From: Bauldia sp.
Lineage (GTDB): Bacteria; Pseudomonadota; Alphaproteobacteria; Rhizobiales; Kaistiaceae
Length of the DNA: 6,587 bases
Assembly: GCA_020442095.1 (NCBI GenBank)
Contig: JAGRKY010000140.1
Coordinates: 1 to 6,587 of the forward strand
Direction of reading: 5' to 3'
This document shows positions 3 through 5,856 of this stretch, piece after piece. The notes beneath the pieces were generated by a model, which was not told the origin of the DNA, ran no database searches, and saw only the letters and a program-made list of their open reading frames with translations. Positions within the stretch are counted from its first letter, which is position 1, and every line of letters starts with the position of its first letter. Both the position numbers and the translations under genes were made by a program.

Positions 3-1451
3 TATCCGCACATGAACGGCATCGGTGGCGATGCCTTCTTCCTGATCGCCGAACCCGGCAAGCCGCCGCGGGCGATCGACGCCTGCGGCCGCTCCGGGAC
101 CCTTGCGACGATCGAGCGGTACCAGAAGCAGGGCCATGACGAGATTCCGCACCGGGGCGCCGAAGCGGCGCTGACGGTCGCGGGCGCGGTTTCGGGATGG
201 CTGCTCGCCAGCGAGGTGGCGACGGCGCTTGGCGGCCGGATCCCGCGCGGCGAGCTGCTCGAGGCGGCGATCCGCCAGGCGAAGGAGGGAAGCCCGGTCA
301 CCCGTTCCTTTGTCAGCTGCATCGCCAACGACCGCTCGTCGCTGACCTCCGTTCCGGGCTTTGCCGACCATTTCATGGAAGATGGCAAGCCGCCCGAGAT
401 CGGCGCGCTTTTCGTCCAGGAGCGGCTTGCCGACACGCTCGATCACCTCGCGCGGGCGGGTTTTGCCGATTTCTATCGGGGCGATGTCGCGGCCGAGATC
501 GCCGTCGATCTCGAAGAGGCGGGGTCCTATGTCACCCGCGAGGATCTGAGGCGCCAGGAAGCGCGCCTCACCGGTCCGCTCTCGGTTCCGCTCGCCGATG
601 CGACGCTGTTCAACACCCCGCCGCCGACGCAAGGGCTGGCGTCCCTGATCATCCTTGCGATCTTCGACCGGCTGGGCGTGCAGAGGGGCGAGAGCTTCGA
701 GCATATCCACGGGCTGATCGAGGCCGCCAAGCGGGCATTCGAGGTCCGTGACCGCGAGATACGCGATCCCGATCATGCCGGGGAGATCGCGCGTTATCTC
801 GAAGCCGGGTGGCTCGACGAAGCGGCATCCCGCATCGACATGAAGCGTGCCGCGGCGTGGCCCGCCGGCAACGGCGACGGCGACACGATCTGGATGGGGG
901 CGATCGACGGCAACGGGCTCGCCGTTTCGTTCATCCAGTCCCTCTACTGGGAATTCGGCTCCGGTATCGTGCTGCCAGGGACCGGGATCGTCTGGCAGAA
1001 CCGCGGCATCAGCTTCTCGCTGGATCCGCGCGCGGCCAACCCGCTCCATCCCGGCCGCAAGCCTTTCCATACGCTCAATCCGGCCTTCGCCCGGTTCAAG
1101 GACGGCCGCAACATGGTCTACGGCTCCATGGGCGGCGACGGCCAGCCGCAATTCCAGTCGGCAATCTTCACTCGCTACGCCCGCTTCGGCATGGAGCCGG
1201 GCGATGCGATCGCGGCGCCGCGCTGGCGGTGGGGGCGGACCTGGGGCGAGGGAACCGCCGGAGTCGAGGTCGAGAACCGTTTCGATCCCGATCTTCTCAC
1301 CTCGCTCGAACGCGCGGGGCATATGGTGAATGTCCTCGATGTGCCCTATTCCGACGGCATGGGTCATGCCGGGATGATCATCCGGCGGGCCGATGGCCGG
1401 CTGATGGGGGCGTCCGATCCCCGATGCGACGGCGAAGCGGTCGCCGCCTGA
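3..1451 (+). CDS. Gamma-glutamyltransferase-family Ntn-hydrolase, 5' truncated by window edge
   Basis: The reading frame is open from base 3, so the true start lies upstream; roughly 50-60 residues are probably missing compared with relatives of about 540 aa. It begins inside the conserved N-terminal motif PHMNGIGGD, and 482 residues are visible. Enzymes of this family are made as a precursor that cleaves itself before a threonine, which then becomes the N-terminal nucleophile of the small subunit. The candidate is the Thr encoded at 885-887 (GDGD-T-IWMGAIDGNGLAVS). From there to the stop is 188 aa, the usual small-subunit size. GSGIVLPGTG, the NPLHPGRKPFHTLNP stretch and GGDGQPQ (from base 1131) follow in family order. 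The gamma-glutamyl-binding arginine motif FREMAP of E. coli GGT is replaced by IDACGRSG, so glutathione may not be the substrate. Oxamate amidohydrolase (HpxW) and acylase-type relatives are alternatives. The amidase gene starts 23 bases downstream. Family assignment is firm; substrate and localisation are unknown. Confidence 0.93.
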   Translation, partial: YPHMNGIGGDAFFLIAEPGKPPRAIDACGRSGTLATIERYQKQGHDEIPHRGAEAALTVAGAVSGWLLASEVATALGGRIPRGELLEAAIRQAKEGSPVTRSFVSCIANDRSSLTSVPGFADHFMEDGKPPEIGALFVQERLADTLDHLARAGFADFYRGDVAAEIAVDLEEAGSYVTREDLRRQEARLTGPLSVPLADATLFNTPPPTQGLASLIILAIFDRLGVQRGESFEHIHGLIEAAKRAFEVRDREIRDPDHAGEIARYLEAGWLDEAASRIDMKRAAAWPAGNGDGDTIWMGAIDGNGLAVSFIQSLYWEFGSGIVLPGTGIVWQNRGISFSLDPRAANPLHPGRKPFHTLNPAFARFKDGRNMVYGSMGGDGQPQFQSAIFTRYARFGMEPGDAIAAPRWRWGRTWGEGTAGVEVENRFDPDLLTSLERAGHMVNVLDVPYSDGMGHAGMIIRRADGRLMGASDPRCDGEAVAA

Positions 1452-1474
1452 ATTCCAACCAACAGGTTCCTGTC

Positions 1475-2662
1475 ATGCTTATTTCTTCCGATCCGGTGAA
1501 TGCCTTTGTCGACTATGACGATACCCCGGTGGCGAATGCCGAAGCCGGGCCGCTCGCCGGGCTGACCCTCGCGGTCAAGGACATCTTCGACGTCGCCGGC
1601 TATCCGACCGGGTGCGGAAATCCGGAACGTCGCGCGGAAGGCGGTGTCGCGACCGAGCACGCGTCCGCGGTCAAGACTCTGCTTGATGCCGGCGCCCGCT
1701 TCGTCGGCAAGACGCATACCGCCGAACTGGCCTTTTCTCTCGACGGCACCAACACCCATTACGGCACGCCGATCAATCCGGCGGCGCCCGACCGCGTTCC
1801 CGGCGGCTCTTCCTCGGGCTCGGCATCAGCGGTCGCGGCGGGCCTTGTCGATATCGCGCTCGGCAGCGACACCGGCGGCTCGGTCCGTGCGCCGGCGTCG
1901 TTCTGCGGCATTGTCGGGCTAAGGACGACCTTCGGGCGGATCGCGGCCGACAGGGTCATGCCGCTTGCCGAGAGCCTCGATACCGTCGGCTGGTTCACCC
2001 GGGATATCGACCTCTATGACCGGGTCGGGGCCGTGATGCTCGGCGACGACGCAGCGGGACCCGAACTGTCCCGGATGATGGTCCCGGAGGATATTCTCGC
2101 CTGCGTGATGAATCCGGCCGCCATGCCCGCGGTCCAGCCGTTCATTGACAAGCTCGCCGTGATCTACGGAGAGCCGGCGACGCCGACGCTTGCCCGCGAG
2201 GGACTGACCGAGTGGCAGCGCGTCTTCCGCACCATCCAGGGCTATGAGGCCTGGCGGAACCATGGCCAGTGGATCGACGAGCGCAAGCCGAAGCTCATGG
2301 ATGCCGTCCGCGGGCGCTTCGAAGCCGCGCGCCGGGTTTCGGATTCGGACTACAGCGTTGCCTGCGCGGAGAGGGGGAGCATCCGCGATCGCATGCTCGA
2401 TCTGCTCGGCGACGACGGGTTCCTCGTCTGGCCGACCCTGCCGACCATCGCTCCGCTTGTCCGGTCGACCGAAGCGGATCTGGAAGGCTTCCGGGCGCGG
2501 GCGCTGTCGATGCTGTGCACGGCGGGCCTCGCCGGGCTGCCGCAGATTTCGCTCCCGGTTGCGACAGTCGACGGGGCGCCCTATGGCCTGTCGCTCATCG
2601 GTCCGCCGGGGCGGGACCGGGCCCTGATCGCGCTGGGGCGGAAGGTGCTTGGGTCGGGCTAG
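1475..2662 (+). CDS. Amidase-signature (AS) family amidase, AMI1-like
   Basis: This 395-residue enzyme is predicted to hydrolyse a carboxamide to acid and ammonia with the Ser-cisSer-Lys triad of the amidase signature family. Visible motifs are AVKDIFDVAG (Lys35), PGGSSSGSA (cis-Ser about 112) and the GSDTGGSVRAPASFCGI stretch (nucleophile Ser136). These positions sit one residue from those I recall for Arabidopsis AMI1 (Lys36, Ser113, Ser137). The flanking text HYGTPINP, DRVPGGSSSG and SLDTVGWFTRD also resembles AMI1, which cleaves indole-3-acetamide. There is no signal peptide, so it should be cytoplasmic. The frame is open far upstream into the preceding gene, but ATG 1475 is the sensible start: the first residues run straight into the family N-terminus. 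Only a weak AGG (1464-1466) lies 8 bases ahead of it. It is 23 bases after the GGT-family stop and 23 bases before the next start, consistent with co-transcription. The actual amide substrate cannot be read from the sequence. Confidence 0.93.
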   Translation: MLISSDPVNAFVDYDDTPVANAEAGPLAGLTLAVKDIFDVAGYPTGCGNPERRAEGGVATEHASAVKTLLDAGARFVGKTHTAELAFSLDGTNTHYGTPINPAAPDRVPGGSSSGSASAVAAGLVDIALGSDTGGSVRAPASFCGIVGLRTTFGRIAADRVMPLAESLDTVGWFTRDIDLYDRVGAVMLGDDAAGPELSRMMVPEDILACVMNPAAMPAVQPFIDKLAVIYGEPATPTLAREGLTEWQRVFRTIQGYEAWRNHGQWIDERKPKLMDAVRGRFEAARRVSDSDYSVACAERGSIRDRMLDLLGDDGFLVWPTLPTIAPLVRSTEADLEGFRARALSMLCTAGLAGLPQISLPVATVDGAPYGLSLIGPPGRDRALIALGRKVLGSG

Positions 2663-2671
2663 TCCGGCGAC

Positions 2672-2676
2672 AGGGG
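2672..2676 (+). promoter_or_regulatory. Ribosome binding site for the ASK1-like gene
   Basis: AGGGG lies 9 bases before ATG 2686, within the 23-base gap after the amidase stop. It supports the choice of this ATG although the frame remains open upstream into the amidase gene. A GAGG at 2680-2683 is too close to the ATG to be the main site. Confidence 0.5.
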
Positions 2677-2685
2677 ATCGAGGCG

Positions 2686-4056
2686 ATGAAGCCGCTCTGT
2701 TTCGTGCTGATGCCATTCGGCCGGAAACCGGAAGGGACCGGGCGGATCATCGACTTCGACGCCGTCTACAACCAGATCATCGCGCCGGGCGTCGAGGCGG
2801 CGGGGATGGAGCCGATCCGTGCCGACCAGGAGGAGATCGGCGGCACCATCCACAAGCCGATGTTCGAGCGGCTGATGCTGTGCGACTACGCCGTGGCGGA
2901 CGTCACCGGCGCCAATCCCAACGTCTATTACGAGCTTGGCATCCGCCATGCGCTGAGGCCGCGCAGCACGCTGATCATCTTCGCCGACAATACCGCGCTG
3001 CCATTCGATATCGCGCAGCAGCGCGGCGTTCCCTATCGCCTCGATGCGGGCGGCGGGGTCGTCGATGCTGAGGCGGACAGCCGTCTGATCGCGCAGCGGC
3101 TGAGGACCGCCAACGAAAATTCCCACGACGACAGCCCGCTGTTCCAGATGATCGATGGCATGCCCCGTATCGAGGTGGACCACGCCAAGACGGATATCTT
3201 CCGCGACCGGGTCGAGATCGCCAAGGAATACCGGACGGCTCTCACCGCCGCGCGCAAGAAGGGCGTCGAGGCGGTCAAGGCGGTCGCCGAGGATCCGCGG
3301 CTTGCGGATCTCCGCAACGTCGAGGCCGGCATCATCATCGACCTCCTGCTTTCCTTCCGGGCGGTGGGAACGCGGGACGGCTGGCAGGGAATGATCGATC
3401 TCCATGCCCGCATGCCGAAGGAATTGCAGCATGCGCGAATGGTGCGCGAGCAGCTCGGCTTCGCGCTGAACCGCATCGGTCGCTCCGACGAGGCGGAACA
3501 GGTCCTCGTCGACGTGATCAGGGAATTCGGCCCGAACAGCGAGACCAACGGATTGCTCGGCCGCGTCTACAAGGACCTCTGGGAAAAGGCGAAGACAGAT
3601 GGCCAGCGCATCCAGGCGCGGGGCTACCTGAAGCGGGCGATCGAGACCTATCGGGCGGGGTTCGAGGCGGACTGGCGCGATGCCTATCCCGGTATCAACG
3701 CGGTCACGCTGATGGAGCTGCAGGACAAGCCCGACCCGGCCCAGAACGACCTGCTGCCGGTGGTTCGCTACGCCGCCTCCCAGCGCGCCAATCGCGACGA
3801 CGGCGAGGCCGGTGACTACTGGGACCACGCGACGCTGCTGGAGCTCGCGGTCCTGGCGCGGGACGAGGAGGGGGCCGAGGACTCGGCGGCACATGCGCTT
3901 TCGCTGGTGCGCGAGCCGTGGGAACCGGCAACCACCGCCCGTAACCTCCGGCTCATCCGCGAGGCACGGGAGGGGCGGGGGGAAGATGTCGCGTGGCTGG
4001 TCGAGATCGAGGAAGCGCTCGCGGACGCGGAAGCCCGTATGCAGGCGGCCAACTGA
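2686..4056 (+). CDS. Rossmannoid (NDT/TIR-like) domain fused to ASK1-type TRAFs-binding TPR domain
   Basis: This 456-aa protein has no signal peptide or membrane segment. Residues 1-120 resemble nucleoside 2-deoxyribosyltransferase/TIR-like Rossmannoid domains: a first strand CFVLMPFG (5-12), then CDYAVADVTG (66-75) and NPNVYYELGIRHAL (77-90). Glu83 sits where such folds carry their catalytic glutamate, with Asp67 and Asp72 as further pocket candidates. A linker DSPLFQMIDGMP (149-160) leads to a helical region (about 165-455). This region carries GLLGRVYKDLW (289-299) and YPGINAVTLM (334-343), which resemble the GRIYKD and SGIN segments in the TRAFs-binding TPR region (DUF4071) of animal ASK1/MAP3K5. 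Bacterial proteins with this architecture exist, but I know of no experimentally settled function. Cleavage of a nucleotide, nucleoside or NAD-like molecule controlled by the TPR half is an inference. It is probably the last gene of the GGT-amidase unit. No kinase, protease or defence partner is adjacent. Domain calls are fairly sure; function is open. Confidence 0.88.
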   Translation: MKPLCFVLMPFGRKPEGTGRIIDFDAVYNQIIAPGVEAAGMEPIRADQEEIGGTIHKPMFERLMLCDYAVADVTGANPNVYYELGIRHALRPRSTLIIFADNTALPFDIAQQRGVPYRLDAGGGVVDAEADSRLIAQRLRTANENSHDDSPLFQMIDGMPRIEVDHAKTDIFRDRVEIAKEYRTALTAARKKGVEAVKAVAEDPRLADLRNVEAGIIIDLLLSFRAVGTRDGWQGMIDLHARMPKELQHARMVREQLGFALNRIGRSDEAEQVLVDVIREFGPNSETNGLLGRVYKDLWEKAKTDGQRIQARGYLKRAIETYRAGFEADWRDAYPGINAVTLMELQDKPDPAQNDLLPVVRYAASQRANRDDGEAGDYWDHATLLELAVLARDEEGAEDSAAHALSLVREPWEPATTARNLRLIREAREGRGEDVAWLVEIEEALADAEARMQAAN

Positions 4057-4064
4057 GACAAACG

Positions 4065-4091
4065 GGCGCGGTGGCAGCCGTCTCCCGCGCC
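4065..4091 (+). terminator. GC-rich inverted repeat, possible weak terminator
   Basis: GGCGCGG (4065-4071) and CCGCGCC (4085-4091) can form a 7-bp all-GC stem with a 13-base loop, starting 9 bases after the stop of the ASK1-like gene. No T-run follows (the sequence continues TCGATAAAG), so it is not a classical intrinsic terminator. It could stabilise the 3' end or attenuate read-through into the nickel genes, or be a chance product of high GC. Confidence 0.3.
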
Positions 4092-4103
4092 TCGATAAAG
4101 CCG

Positions 4104-4117
4104 CAGTCTTTCAGTCT
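4104..4117 (+). repeat. Short tandem direct repeat in the spacer before the DUF1007 gene
   Basis: CAGTCT occurs at 4104-4109 and again at 4112-4117, with an 8-base period. It lies 22 bases ahead of the DUF1007 start, in the only intergenic stretch of any size in the window. The position would suit an operator, but no known nickel/cobalt regulator site (for example an RcnR-like G-tract palindrome) is recognisable, nor is a clear -35/-10 pair. It may be chance. Confidence 0.25.
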
Positions 4118-4125
4118 CAAGGCAC

Positions 4126-4130
4126 GGGGA
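4126..4130 (+). promoter_or_regulatory. Ribosome binding site for the DUF1007 gene
   Basis: GGGGA lies 8 bases before ATG 4139. It supports this start over the long upstream open extension of the same frame, which runs back into the preceding gene. The chosen ATG also opens a clean signal peptide. Confidence 0.5.
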
Positions 4131-4138
4131 CCAATCGG

Positions 4139-4789
4139 ATGCGATTCATCAAAGCTGCGATTGTCGGTTCGGCTCTTCTCGCCAGCGCGACTGGCGCGGG
4201 CGCGCATCCGCATGTCCTGGTCGACGCAAGGGCCGAGGTCGTCTTCGACCCCGCCGGCGAGATTTCGGCGATCCGCAACATCTGGCAGTTCGACGAGGCA
4301 TTTACCGCCTTCGCCATCCAGGGACTCGATGCCAACGACGACGGCGAGCTGAGCGACGACGAACTGGCGCCGCTCGCCCAGGTGAACGTCGATTCCCTCA
4401 AGGACTATGACTTCTTCACCTACCTGACCGTGGACGACAAGTCGGTCGGCTTCTCGCCGCCGACGGAATATTTCCTTCAGTTCTACAGCGGCCGGCTGAC
4501 TCTCTTCTACACCTTGCCCCTCAAGAAGCCGGTGGCAGCCGGCAAGGCGACGACGCTCGAGGTCTTCGATCCCGAATATTTCGTTGCCTTCACCTTCATG
4601 GAAGATGCGCCCGTGACCCTCGTCGACGCGCCGACCGGCTGCGACGCCGCCTATCAGCCACCGAAGGAACTCGACGCCCAAACCATGACGATCCTCGGCG
4701 CCATTCCCGCGGACCAGCGTGATCTGCCCCCTGCGCTGCAGGACGCCGCGGCGGGTCTCGCCAGCCTTATCCAGATATCGTGCAACTGA
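4139..4789 (+). CDS. DUF1007 family secreted protein, partner of Ni/Co exporter
   Basis: This 216-aa protein has a signal peptide: a short basic start (MRFIK), a hydrophobic stretch (6-19) and a likely cleavage after AGA (residue 22). The mature protein would start at HPHV (23-26), the conserved DUF1007 opening. Residues 64-75 form a canonical EF-hand-like loop (D-A-N-D-D-G-E-L-S-D-D-E). FDPEYFVAF (143-151) is another family segment. The two cysteines, Cys168 and Cys215, could form a disulfide in the periplasm. DUF1007 genes commonly neighbour or are fused to NicO-type exporters. Here the exporter start overlaps the 3' end of this gene by 10 bases, so a role in handling Ni2+/Co2+ for the transporter is likely, though the family's biochemistry is, to my knowledge, unsettled. 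The gene starts a new unit after an 82-base spacer; read-through from upstream is possible. Confidence 0.9.
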   Translation: MRFIKAAIVGSALLASATGAGAHPHVLVDARAEVVFDPAGEISAIRNIWQFDEAFTAFAIQGLDANDDGELSDDELAPLAQVNVDSLKDYDFFTYLTVDDKSVGFSPPTEYFLQFYSGRLTLFYTLPLKKPVAAGKATTLEVFDPEYFVAFTFMEDAPVTLVDAPTGCDAAYQPPKELDAQTMTILGAIPADQRDLPPALQDAAAGLASLIQISCN

Positions 4790-5856
4790 CGCGCAAGAGA
4801 CTGGTCGTTTCGGCCGCCGTCGCGATCGGCGCCTGTCTTGTCGCCGGCGGTGCCCTCGCCGCCCAGTCTCCCTTCGGGATCGCGACACCGGATGGCGGGG
4901 GAAGCGCCTTCGGCGGTCCGCTCGGTCCGGTCTTCTTCTGGATCGCCCAGCGCCAGCGCGAATTCTACCAGAGCCTGACCGCGTCGCTTTCGAGCTTCAA
5001 GGACAGCGGCGCGGCTGTGTGGGCGCTGCTCGGGCTCAGCTTCTTCTATGGCATCTTCCACGCCGCCGGCCCCGGCCATGGCAAGGTCGTGATCAGCTCC
5101 TACATCGTCGCGTCGGGGGAGACGGTGCGTCGCGGCATCGCGATCGCCTTTGCCGCGGCCTTCGTCCAGGCGGTGACGGCCGTGGTCGTTGTCGGGATCG
5201 CCGCGGCGATCCTCAACGTCACCGCGCAGACAATGACCGCGGCGACGGACTGGCTGGAGATCGGCAGCTACGCGCTGGTGGCGGCGGTTGGCGCATGGCT
5301 CTTATGGTCGAAGACCGTTGGTGGCGGCCATCACCATCATCACCACCACCACGTCCCCGTCGCCGACGGGCCGCATGCCGAGCATGCTCACCACGATCAC
5401 GACCACAGCCATGACCATCACAGTCACGACCATGACCACCATGATCACGGGCACGATGATCATCACGGTCATGCCCATTGCCATGGCCATCCGATCGCCC
5501 GGACTGCTCCTGCGACGTCCGGCAATCCGCTGGTCAGGGCGTGGTCGGCAATTCTCGGGGTCGGCATCCGGCCCTGTTCCGGCGCCATCATCATCCTGGT
5601 CTTCGCGCTTTCCCAGGGGCTGTTCTACGCCGGGGTCGCGGCGACCTTCGTGATGGCGGTCGGCACCGGGATCACTGTCGCGGCGCTGGCGACGCTGGCG
5701 GTATCGGCCAAGGGGCTGGCGGCGCGGTTCGCCGGCGGCGAATCGGAGACCGGGCACCGCGTGCTCCGGGTGATCGAGATCGCCGGCGCCCTGGCAGTGC
5801 TGCTGCTCGGGCTTCTCCTGCTTGGCGGCGCGTTGTCGACCCAGTTCGCGGGCTGA
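4780..5856 (+). CDS. NicO/RcnA-family nickel/cobalt exporter with His-rich loop
   Basis: This 358-aa inner-membrane protein is predicted to export Ni2+ and/or Co2+. After an N-terminal hydrophobic segment (8-28), membrane segments are visible at about 78-96, 116-145, 157-177, 266-286, 288-310 and 328-352. FHAAGPGHGK (93-102) is the hallmark metal-site motif of the family, and GIRPCSGAI (262-270) is the second conserved block. Between them, residues 184-237 hold 29 histidines plus many aspartates, a metal-binding loop typical of RcnA-like exporters. The start is taken as GTG 4780, inside the DUF1007 gene. No ATG, GTG or TTG follows in the frame before the hydrophobic segment, and no good ribosome binding site precedes it, so translational coupling to DUF1007 is likely. 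The stop TGA (5854-5856) directly abuts the stop of the convergent gene. Nickel versus cobalt preference, and direction of transport, come from family knowledge rather than this sequence. Confidence 0.93.
   Translation: MQLTRKRLVVSAAVAIGACLVAGGALAAQSPFGIATPDGGGSAFGGPLGPVFFWIAQRQREFYQSLTASLSSFKDSGAAVWALLGLSFFYGIFHAAGPGHGKVVISSYIVASGETVRRGIAIAFAAAFVQAVTAVVVVGIAAAILNVTAQTMTAATDWLEIGSYALVAAVGAWLLWSKTVGGGHHHHHHHHVPVADGPHAEHAHHDHDHSHDHHSHDHDHHDHGHDDHHGHAHCHGHPIARTAPATSGNPLVRAWSAILGVGIRPCSGAIIILVFALSQGLFYAGVAATFVMAVGTGITVAALATLAVSAKGLAARFAGGESETGHRVLRVIEIAGALAVLLLGLLLLGGALSTQFAG
5329..5490 (+). repeat. CAY/GAY-rich low-complexity tract encoding the His-rich loop
   Basis: The tract opens with eight consecutive His codons of mixed CAT/CAC use (5329-5352). 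An interrupted stretch of His and Asp codons follows, to 5490. In total 29 of 54 codons are His. Mixed synonymous codons argue for selection on the protein rather than simple nucleotide slippage, but the tract is likely to vary in length between strains. Confidence 0.85.

Follow-up and report, generated by a model that had tools for sequence, protein, structure and literature searches.

The window analyzed here is a 6,587-nucleotide stretch of a Bauldia contig (Kaistiaceae, Hyphomicrobiales in the NCBI taxonomy), and its central gene encodes a protein of 456 residues that joins a DRHyd domain to a TPR-S array (Table 1). The start codon is likely the ATG at 2686, because 13 of the 23 proteins aligned, counting the window's own, open with M-x-PLC at this place; a longer in-frame ORF, from 2269, runs within the amidase gene. 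The translation contains Glu83 and all five motifs named in the original prediction: CFVLMPFG (residues 5-12), CDYAVADVTG (66-75) and NPNVYYELG (77-85), followed in the helical half by GRVYKDLW (292-299) and YPGIN (334-338). A chance motif match is ruled out by Pfam scores far above their cut-offs (see below) and by a search in which 7158 of the 7999 scored candidates qualified as homologues at E <= 0.001. An NCBIfam search with the 456-residue protein returned no family.

The amidase stop lies 24 bases before the DRHyd-TPR-S start, and a scan of window positions 1400-4300 found no promoter or terminator. We rejected the idea that the window's copy is a mobile gene or part of a defence island, given the neighboring genes (GGT, amidase, DUF1007, NicO and peptidase C26); the GC content along the window (0.62-0.70) also counted against such an origin. 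Incidentally, the DUF1007 gene overlaps the NicO exporter gene (together 4139-5856), which encodes a His-rich loop. Together they resemble an export system for nickel or cobalt, and they are syntenic across the Bauldia loci compared.

Table 1. Features of the window, in order of position
Feature	Position	Strand	Basis
Gamma-glutamyltranspeptidase (GGT)	12-1451		Pfam scan of window
Amidase	1475-2662		Pfam scan of window
DRHyd-TPR-S gene, whole feature	2686-4056	+	456 aa open frame; Pfam matches
DRHyd domain (NDT/DNPH1/TIR-like Rossmannoid)	2686-3117	+	residues 1-144
Met59 codon	2860-2862	+	gap-free profile alignment with catalytic Asp of DNPH1/Rcl (D80, human); Met in 239/240
PF13281 MAP3K_TRAF_bd match	2923-3984	+	residues 80-433; Pfam
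Glu83 codon	2932-2934	+	profile alignment with catalytic Glu of DNPH1/Rcl (YELG); 240/240 proteins
TPR (TPR-S / TRAFs-binding) helical array	3193-4050	+	residues 170-455; model, Foldseek and VIA to ASK1 5ulm, 8qgy
PF20308 TPR-S match	3382-3714	+	residues 233-343; Pfam
TPR-S signature Lys296, Tyr322, Tyr334, Asn338, Trp379	3571-3822	+	identical in 28/28 aligned rows
DUF1007 protein	4139-4789		Pfam scan of window
NicO exporter	4780-5856		Pfam scan of window
Peptidase C26	5857-6585	opposite to DRHyd-TPR-S gene	Pfam scan of window

The DUF4071/TRAFs-binding match anticipated for the C-terminal half was found: MAP3K_TRAF_bd scores 128.6 bits (cut-off 24.1, E 3.8e-37) and TPR-S 94.5 bits (cut-off 27.6, E 6.5e-27). 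The protein has the TRAFs-binding TPR region of the ASK kinases (MAP3K5/6/15), and its domain order is probably that of the N-terminal half of ASK1/MAP3K5 (thioredoxin-binding, then TRAFs-binding TPR). Comparison with ASK1 8qgy gives E 1.2e-6 by single sequence and 3.2e-13 by profile, and the top Foldseek match of the model is an ASK1 structure (17% identity in the fold alignment). A Pfam scan of the 456 residues found no protein kinase family at E <= 1, and the protein is not classed as an ASK kinase. The original parallel with the half of ASK outside the kinase is supported; the sensing and gating proposed with it are predictions. The parallel may go further than originally stated, to the thioredoxin-binding domain, whose fold the modeled DRHyd domain matches (Foldseek 2.7e-3), although pieces of that ASK1 region are not significant by sequence alone (i-Evalue 40 by single sequence, 160 by profile). 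In alignments read by eye, Lys296, Gly336, Asn338 and Trp379 recur in ASK1, whereas ASK1 has His at the place of Glu83, Phe at Tyr322 and Gln at Tyr334. Passages of the ASK1 cryo-EM paper describe the thioredoxin-binding domains as thioredoxin-like, embedded between TPRs and touching the TPR of the other chain, with effects of thioredoxin binding on the TPR (PMC10972558); word counts over its main text gave no instance of nucleotide, Rossmann, bacterial or prokaryot.

The first 79 residues match no Pfam family above its cut-off in the Pfam scan. When the N-terminal half is modeled alone (pLDDT 86.2, pTM 0.84), fold searches lead to DNPH1, NDT and TIR folds, so that residues 1-145 are predicted to adopt the Rossmannoid fold of the DRHyd superfamily (NDT, DNPH1, MilB). 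DNPH1/Rcl is the top row of the VIA fold comparison of this half and is also found when a profile of 22 N-terminal domains is searched against the PDB (best E 7.8e-4); the PADLOC model "Effector, TIR" matches residues 28-117 (1.6e-9). The nucleophilic Glu of the superfamily, within YELG, is present as Glu83, and it is conserved throughout the 240 proteins compared, as is Met59 in all but one. It should be noted that these comprise two sets of best-scoring homologues (the best 120 from the search with the window protein, query included, and the best 120 from that with a distant plasmid relative) and are not a random sample. The expectation of an NDT/TIR-type fold with a conserved Glu is supported, with a TIR fold in the narrower sense as a possible assignment. 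The catalytic Asp of DNPH1 and NDT enzymes (D80 in DNPH1) is missing, and Met59 stands in its place, as determined by counting residues by eye on the printed profile alignment.

For DNPH1, two papers assign protonation of the leaving base to D80 and the role of nucleophile to E104 (PMC10603095; PMC12751057). Replacement of this Asp by Met59 with Glu83 kept speaks against a deoxynucleosidase and favors substrates of the NAD+ type: a nucleophile without an acid would suit a leaving group that departs unprotonated, as the nicotinamide of NAD+ does. A preprint describes the DUF4062 domains, which resemble TIR and NDT distantly, as NADases acting via a conserved Glu (PMC13174449). Residue 56 is His in 118 of 118 proteins of the first set (two rows are gapped) and Asp throughout the 120 proteins of the second; His56 might act as an alternative acid, so the loss-of-acid argument is a prediction, not proof. 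The predicted nucleotide-cutting site probably works. Of the original NDT/TIR-type reading, the fold and the Glu are supported, but a deoxyribosyltransferase reaction is unlikely given the change from Asp to Met59, and classification as a nucleoside deoxyribosyltransferase proper was rejected on the same ground. A catalytically dead scaffold, as the thioredoxin-binding domain of ASK1 seems to be, serving as a stress or redox adaptor, would fit the shared two-domain order and the His that ASK1 carries (by eye) at the Glu83 place; we consider it very improbable, because Glu83 is kept in every protein of the two sets, unlike in ASK1.

We read 35 DRHyd-TPR-S loci with profiles built for this analysis, 11 from the clade of the window protein and 24 others, counting a lipase-, patatin- or SLATT-type gene as a partner if at most two genes separate it from DRHyd-TPR-S. 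Outside the clade, 16 of 24 loci have a lipase-, patatin- or SLATT-type partner: an alpha/beta-hydrolase-TPR-S protein in seven (L091, L093, L095, L098-L101), TPR-S-patatin at the same partner place in three (L092:9313-11706, L096:1767-4100, L097:9209-11923), patatin in three (L009, L104, L108) and SLATT in three (L023, L024, L026). The total of 24 excludes L110, a TPR-S locus that matches the family profile only weakly; L026 was scored as having a partner despite two intervening TIR genes, and L109, in which a patatin and a SLATT gene lie further off, is among the eight without a near partner. The partner proteins were checked with Pfam at eight of the 16 loci (L023, L026, L009, L091, L096, L097, L098, L104). 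SLATT is presented as a predicted nucleotide-responsive pore-forming effector (PMC7159879). At all seven of its loci the hydrolase-TPR-S gene immediately precedes DRHyd-TPR-S in the same orientation, and the pair looks like a two-gene lipase system; in L093, L098 and L101 the two genes share 4 bases if the first possible start codon is taken. The TPR-S signature was read from 28 aligned TPR-S regions, 18 from DRHyd-TPR-S proteins and 10 from partner effectors (abhydrolase-TPR-S and TPR-S-patatin). A single signal read by both proteins would explain why they have the signature in common.

Other genes also occur near the relatives. TIR, QueC-type and 8-oxoguanine-glycosylase-type genes are found at five loci (L023, L024, L093, L095, L109; Pfam check for L023), the TIR genes being ThsB-type; L023 also has a TIR protein with a weak TGT match. 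In L091, a gene with a match to NARF (nucleotidyltransferase-associated Rossmannoid) directly follows DRHyd-TPR-S (7006-8025).

Within the clade of the window protein, none of the 11 loci (the window, L001-L008, L010 and L138) has a lipase, patatin or SLATT partner. Against 16 of 24, this gives a Fisher p of 1.9e-4, with the caveat that the loci are not independent: the window, L001, L002, L003, L005 and L010 have neighbors in common, and L007 and L008 share one. When contexts are merged and compared with 15 of 23, p is 0.013 with five contexts and 0.028 with four. In a tree of 49 proteins, the 11 loci and 11 relatives of unknown context form one clade (SH-aLRT 100), nested inside partnered lineages; the nearest are L097, with TPR-S-patatin, and L094, with no known partner (group support 89). 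This is a quick tree with no bootstrap, from which L109, L026 and L108 were excluded (only part of the profile matched). The clade count leaves out L011, which matches residues 1-95 in two frames; this DRHyd front end (847-1652) has no TPR-S match behind it and is perhaps a broken or differently fused copy. The separate effector gene seems to have been dropped in the window's clade. Being lone is a property of this clade and not of the wider family, and the original description of a lone protein needs that restriction. The proposed survey of gene neighborhoods for defence partners turned up lipase, patatin, SLATT and TIR genes near relatives, and none of the first three types within the clade.

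Alternatively, the DRHyd domain could generate a signal, making an NAD+-derived messenger as in Thoeris for an effector encoded elsewhere in the genome, in which case the clade would be unlinked rather than orphaned. Relatives do adjoin separate effectors (abhydrolase-TPR-S, TPR-S-patatin, patatin, SLATT), and cADPR or variants of it are among the products attributed to certain TIR and DrHyd enzymes (PMC9503650). However, a search for TPR-S proteins in nine clade genomes (G1123, with L138, left out) found a single one above the PF20308 cut-off in eight, and we regard a remote effector as unlikely. Because eight of the nine genomes are titled MAG, the absence of further TPR-S proteins is provisional. 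The ninth, G008, favors the signal-generator idea in that it encodes a further TPR-S protein (L140:44-4276), which also contains HTH and SLOG-like parts (domains by eye, TPR-S by Pfam). That gene is followed by one resembling FHA plus trypsin by eye, another kind of TPR-S system. A weak extra PF20308 match in G002 is, by eye, a TPR-sulfotransferase.

The closest relatives in named genomes are from Bauldia (L001 at 93%, L002 at 87%). Any match was found in 18 of 398 genomes for the phylum of Bauldia, 16 of 296 for that of Maribacter, 32 of 397 at the order level, 17 of 248 for the family of G006, 9 of 28 for the Bauldia family (6 full-length) and 5 of 30 for the family of G007 (2 full-length), and the DRHyd-TPR-S gene is in all five genomes searched of the Bauldia litoralis genus. 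Source names of relatives include Acidobacterial (63%) and Actinomycetota (62%) MAGs, and two relatives with such names (P0083, P0105) fall in the window's clade in the tree. Relatives occur in 65 of 72,556 plasmid records and 34 of 50,697 phage records, with at most 38% of the query covered among the 20 phage matches listed. Streptococcus phage SM1 (gp11, L027:3989-4648) and further Streptococcus and Staphylococcus phages encode DRHyd-like proteins (phrog_3634, annotated as unknown function) that possibly serve superinfection defence; in SM1, repressor and integrase genes are close by.

We compared the window with five of its six near relatives (L004 left out; GGT was found in four of the five). 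The pN/pS of the DRHyd-TPR-S gene is the lowest among the window's genes in four comparisons (0.099, against the nearest relative, and 0.164, 0.219 and 0.387) and second lowest in the fifth (0.377, versus 0.369 for C26). The gene is kept intact by purifying selection. Such selection, together with synteny in the Bauldia group, would also be expected of a DNPH1-like housekeeping N-glycosidase for nucleotide hygiene with a TPR regulatory tail, and DNPH1/Rcl gives both the top VIA row and the best PDB sequence-profile matches. We think this distinctly unlikely, as Met59 replaces the catalytic Asp and relatives accompany lipases, pores and TIR genes.

The reading we prefer, to which we give an even chance, is a self-contained, TPR-S-gated NAD+-cleaving switch that corresponds in bacteria to the half of ASK with the thioredoxin-binding and TRAFs-binding parts, in a clade that seems to lack a separate effector gene. 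The TPR-S array would recognize a signal, be it a nucleotide, a ligand derived from NAD+ or a protein, through the site that the five signature residues mark. Until it arrives, the array, in a dimer, would hold the DRHyd domain off. The released domain would then cut an N-glycosidic bond with Glu83. NAD+ may be the likeliest substrate, because the protonating residue of DNPH1 is Met here and nicotinamide leaves without a proton. The outcome could be NAD+ loss, dormancy or an ADP-ribose-type signal, and sensor and effector would be one protein. We consider gating of the DRHyd domain by TPR-S within a dimer the most likely mechanism; its model is ASK1, in which the thioredoxin-binding domain contacts the TPR of the opposite protomer (PMC10972558). 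A bolder version, which we think rather unlikely, is that this ASK-like one-protein switch shed a membrane-attacking partner, entered the core genome of Bauldia for good and reached several bacterial phyla, where it controls stress responses or dormancy. If true, ASK as it stood before kinase gain and loss of the catalytic Glu would have a living single-chain model. More generally, with a compact bacterial form that has kept the catalytic Glu, one could test whether ASK arose from a hydrolase of NAD+ or nucleotides gated by a ligand, and the partnerless clade would tell whether an enzyme and a sensor are enough by themselves.

The family itself has precedents. Bacterial DRHyd-TPR-S conflict systems are reportedly the subject of a paper by Burroughs and Aravind (2020, J Bacteriol), in which the TPR scaffold is said to be predicted to recognize NAD+-derived signals, and some of the partner types may have been covered there already. 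The family, domain order, and catalytic and sensor residues of these systems are those of the window protein; it is in lacking the partner of the two-gene form that its clade differs. The architecture is not new: Pfam names both pieces (TPR-S and DRHyd-ASK), and the derivation of ASK signalosome parts from bacterial conflict systems is published (PMC8195603, which cites Burroughs and Aravind 2020 for the ASK signalosome). DNPH1/Rcl and the nucleoside 2'-deoxyribosyltransferases have the same fold and catalytic Glu, whereas the window protein has Met59 for the catalytic Asp, and a TPR-S tail. The DUF4062 NADases ("Swarozyc", human TEP1) are, like it, TIR/NDT-related, with one conserved Glu and accessory-domain fusions, but they form a different Pfam family, and word counts gave neither "ASK1" nor "TPR" in the main text (PMC13174449). 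Thoeris (ThsB TIR plus ThsA) has the same proposed logic of an NAD+-using domain and a nucleotide sensor, and some relatives (L026, L023) have ThsB-type TIR genes nearby; here, however, there is no SIR2/SLOG effector, and sensor and enzyme are in a single chain. As far as we searched the literature, what is new against these systems is the change from Asp to Met and the nested, partnerless clade.
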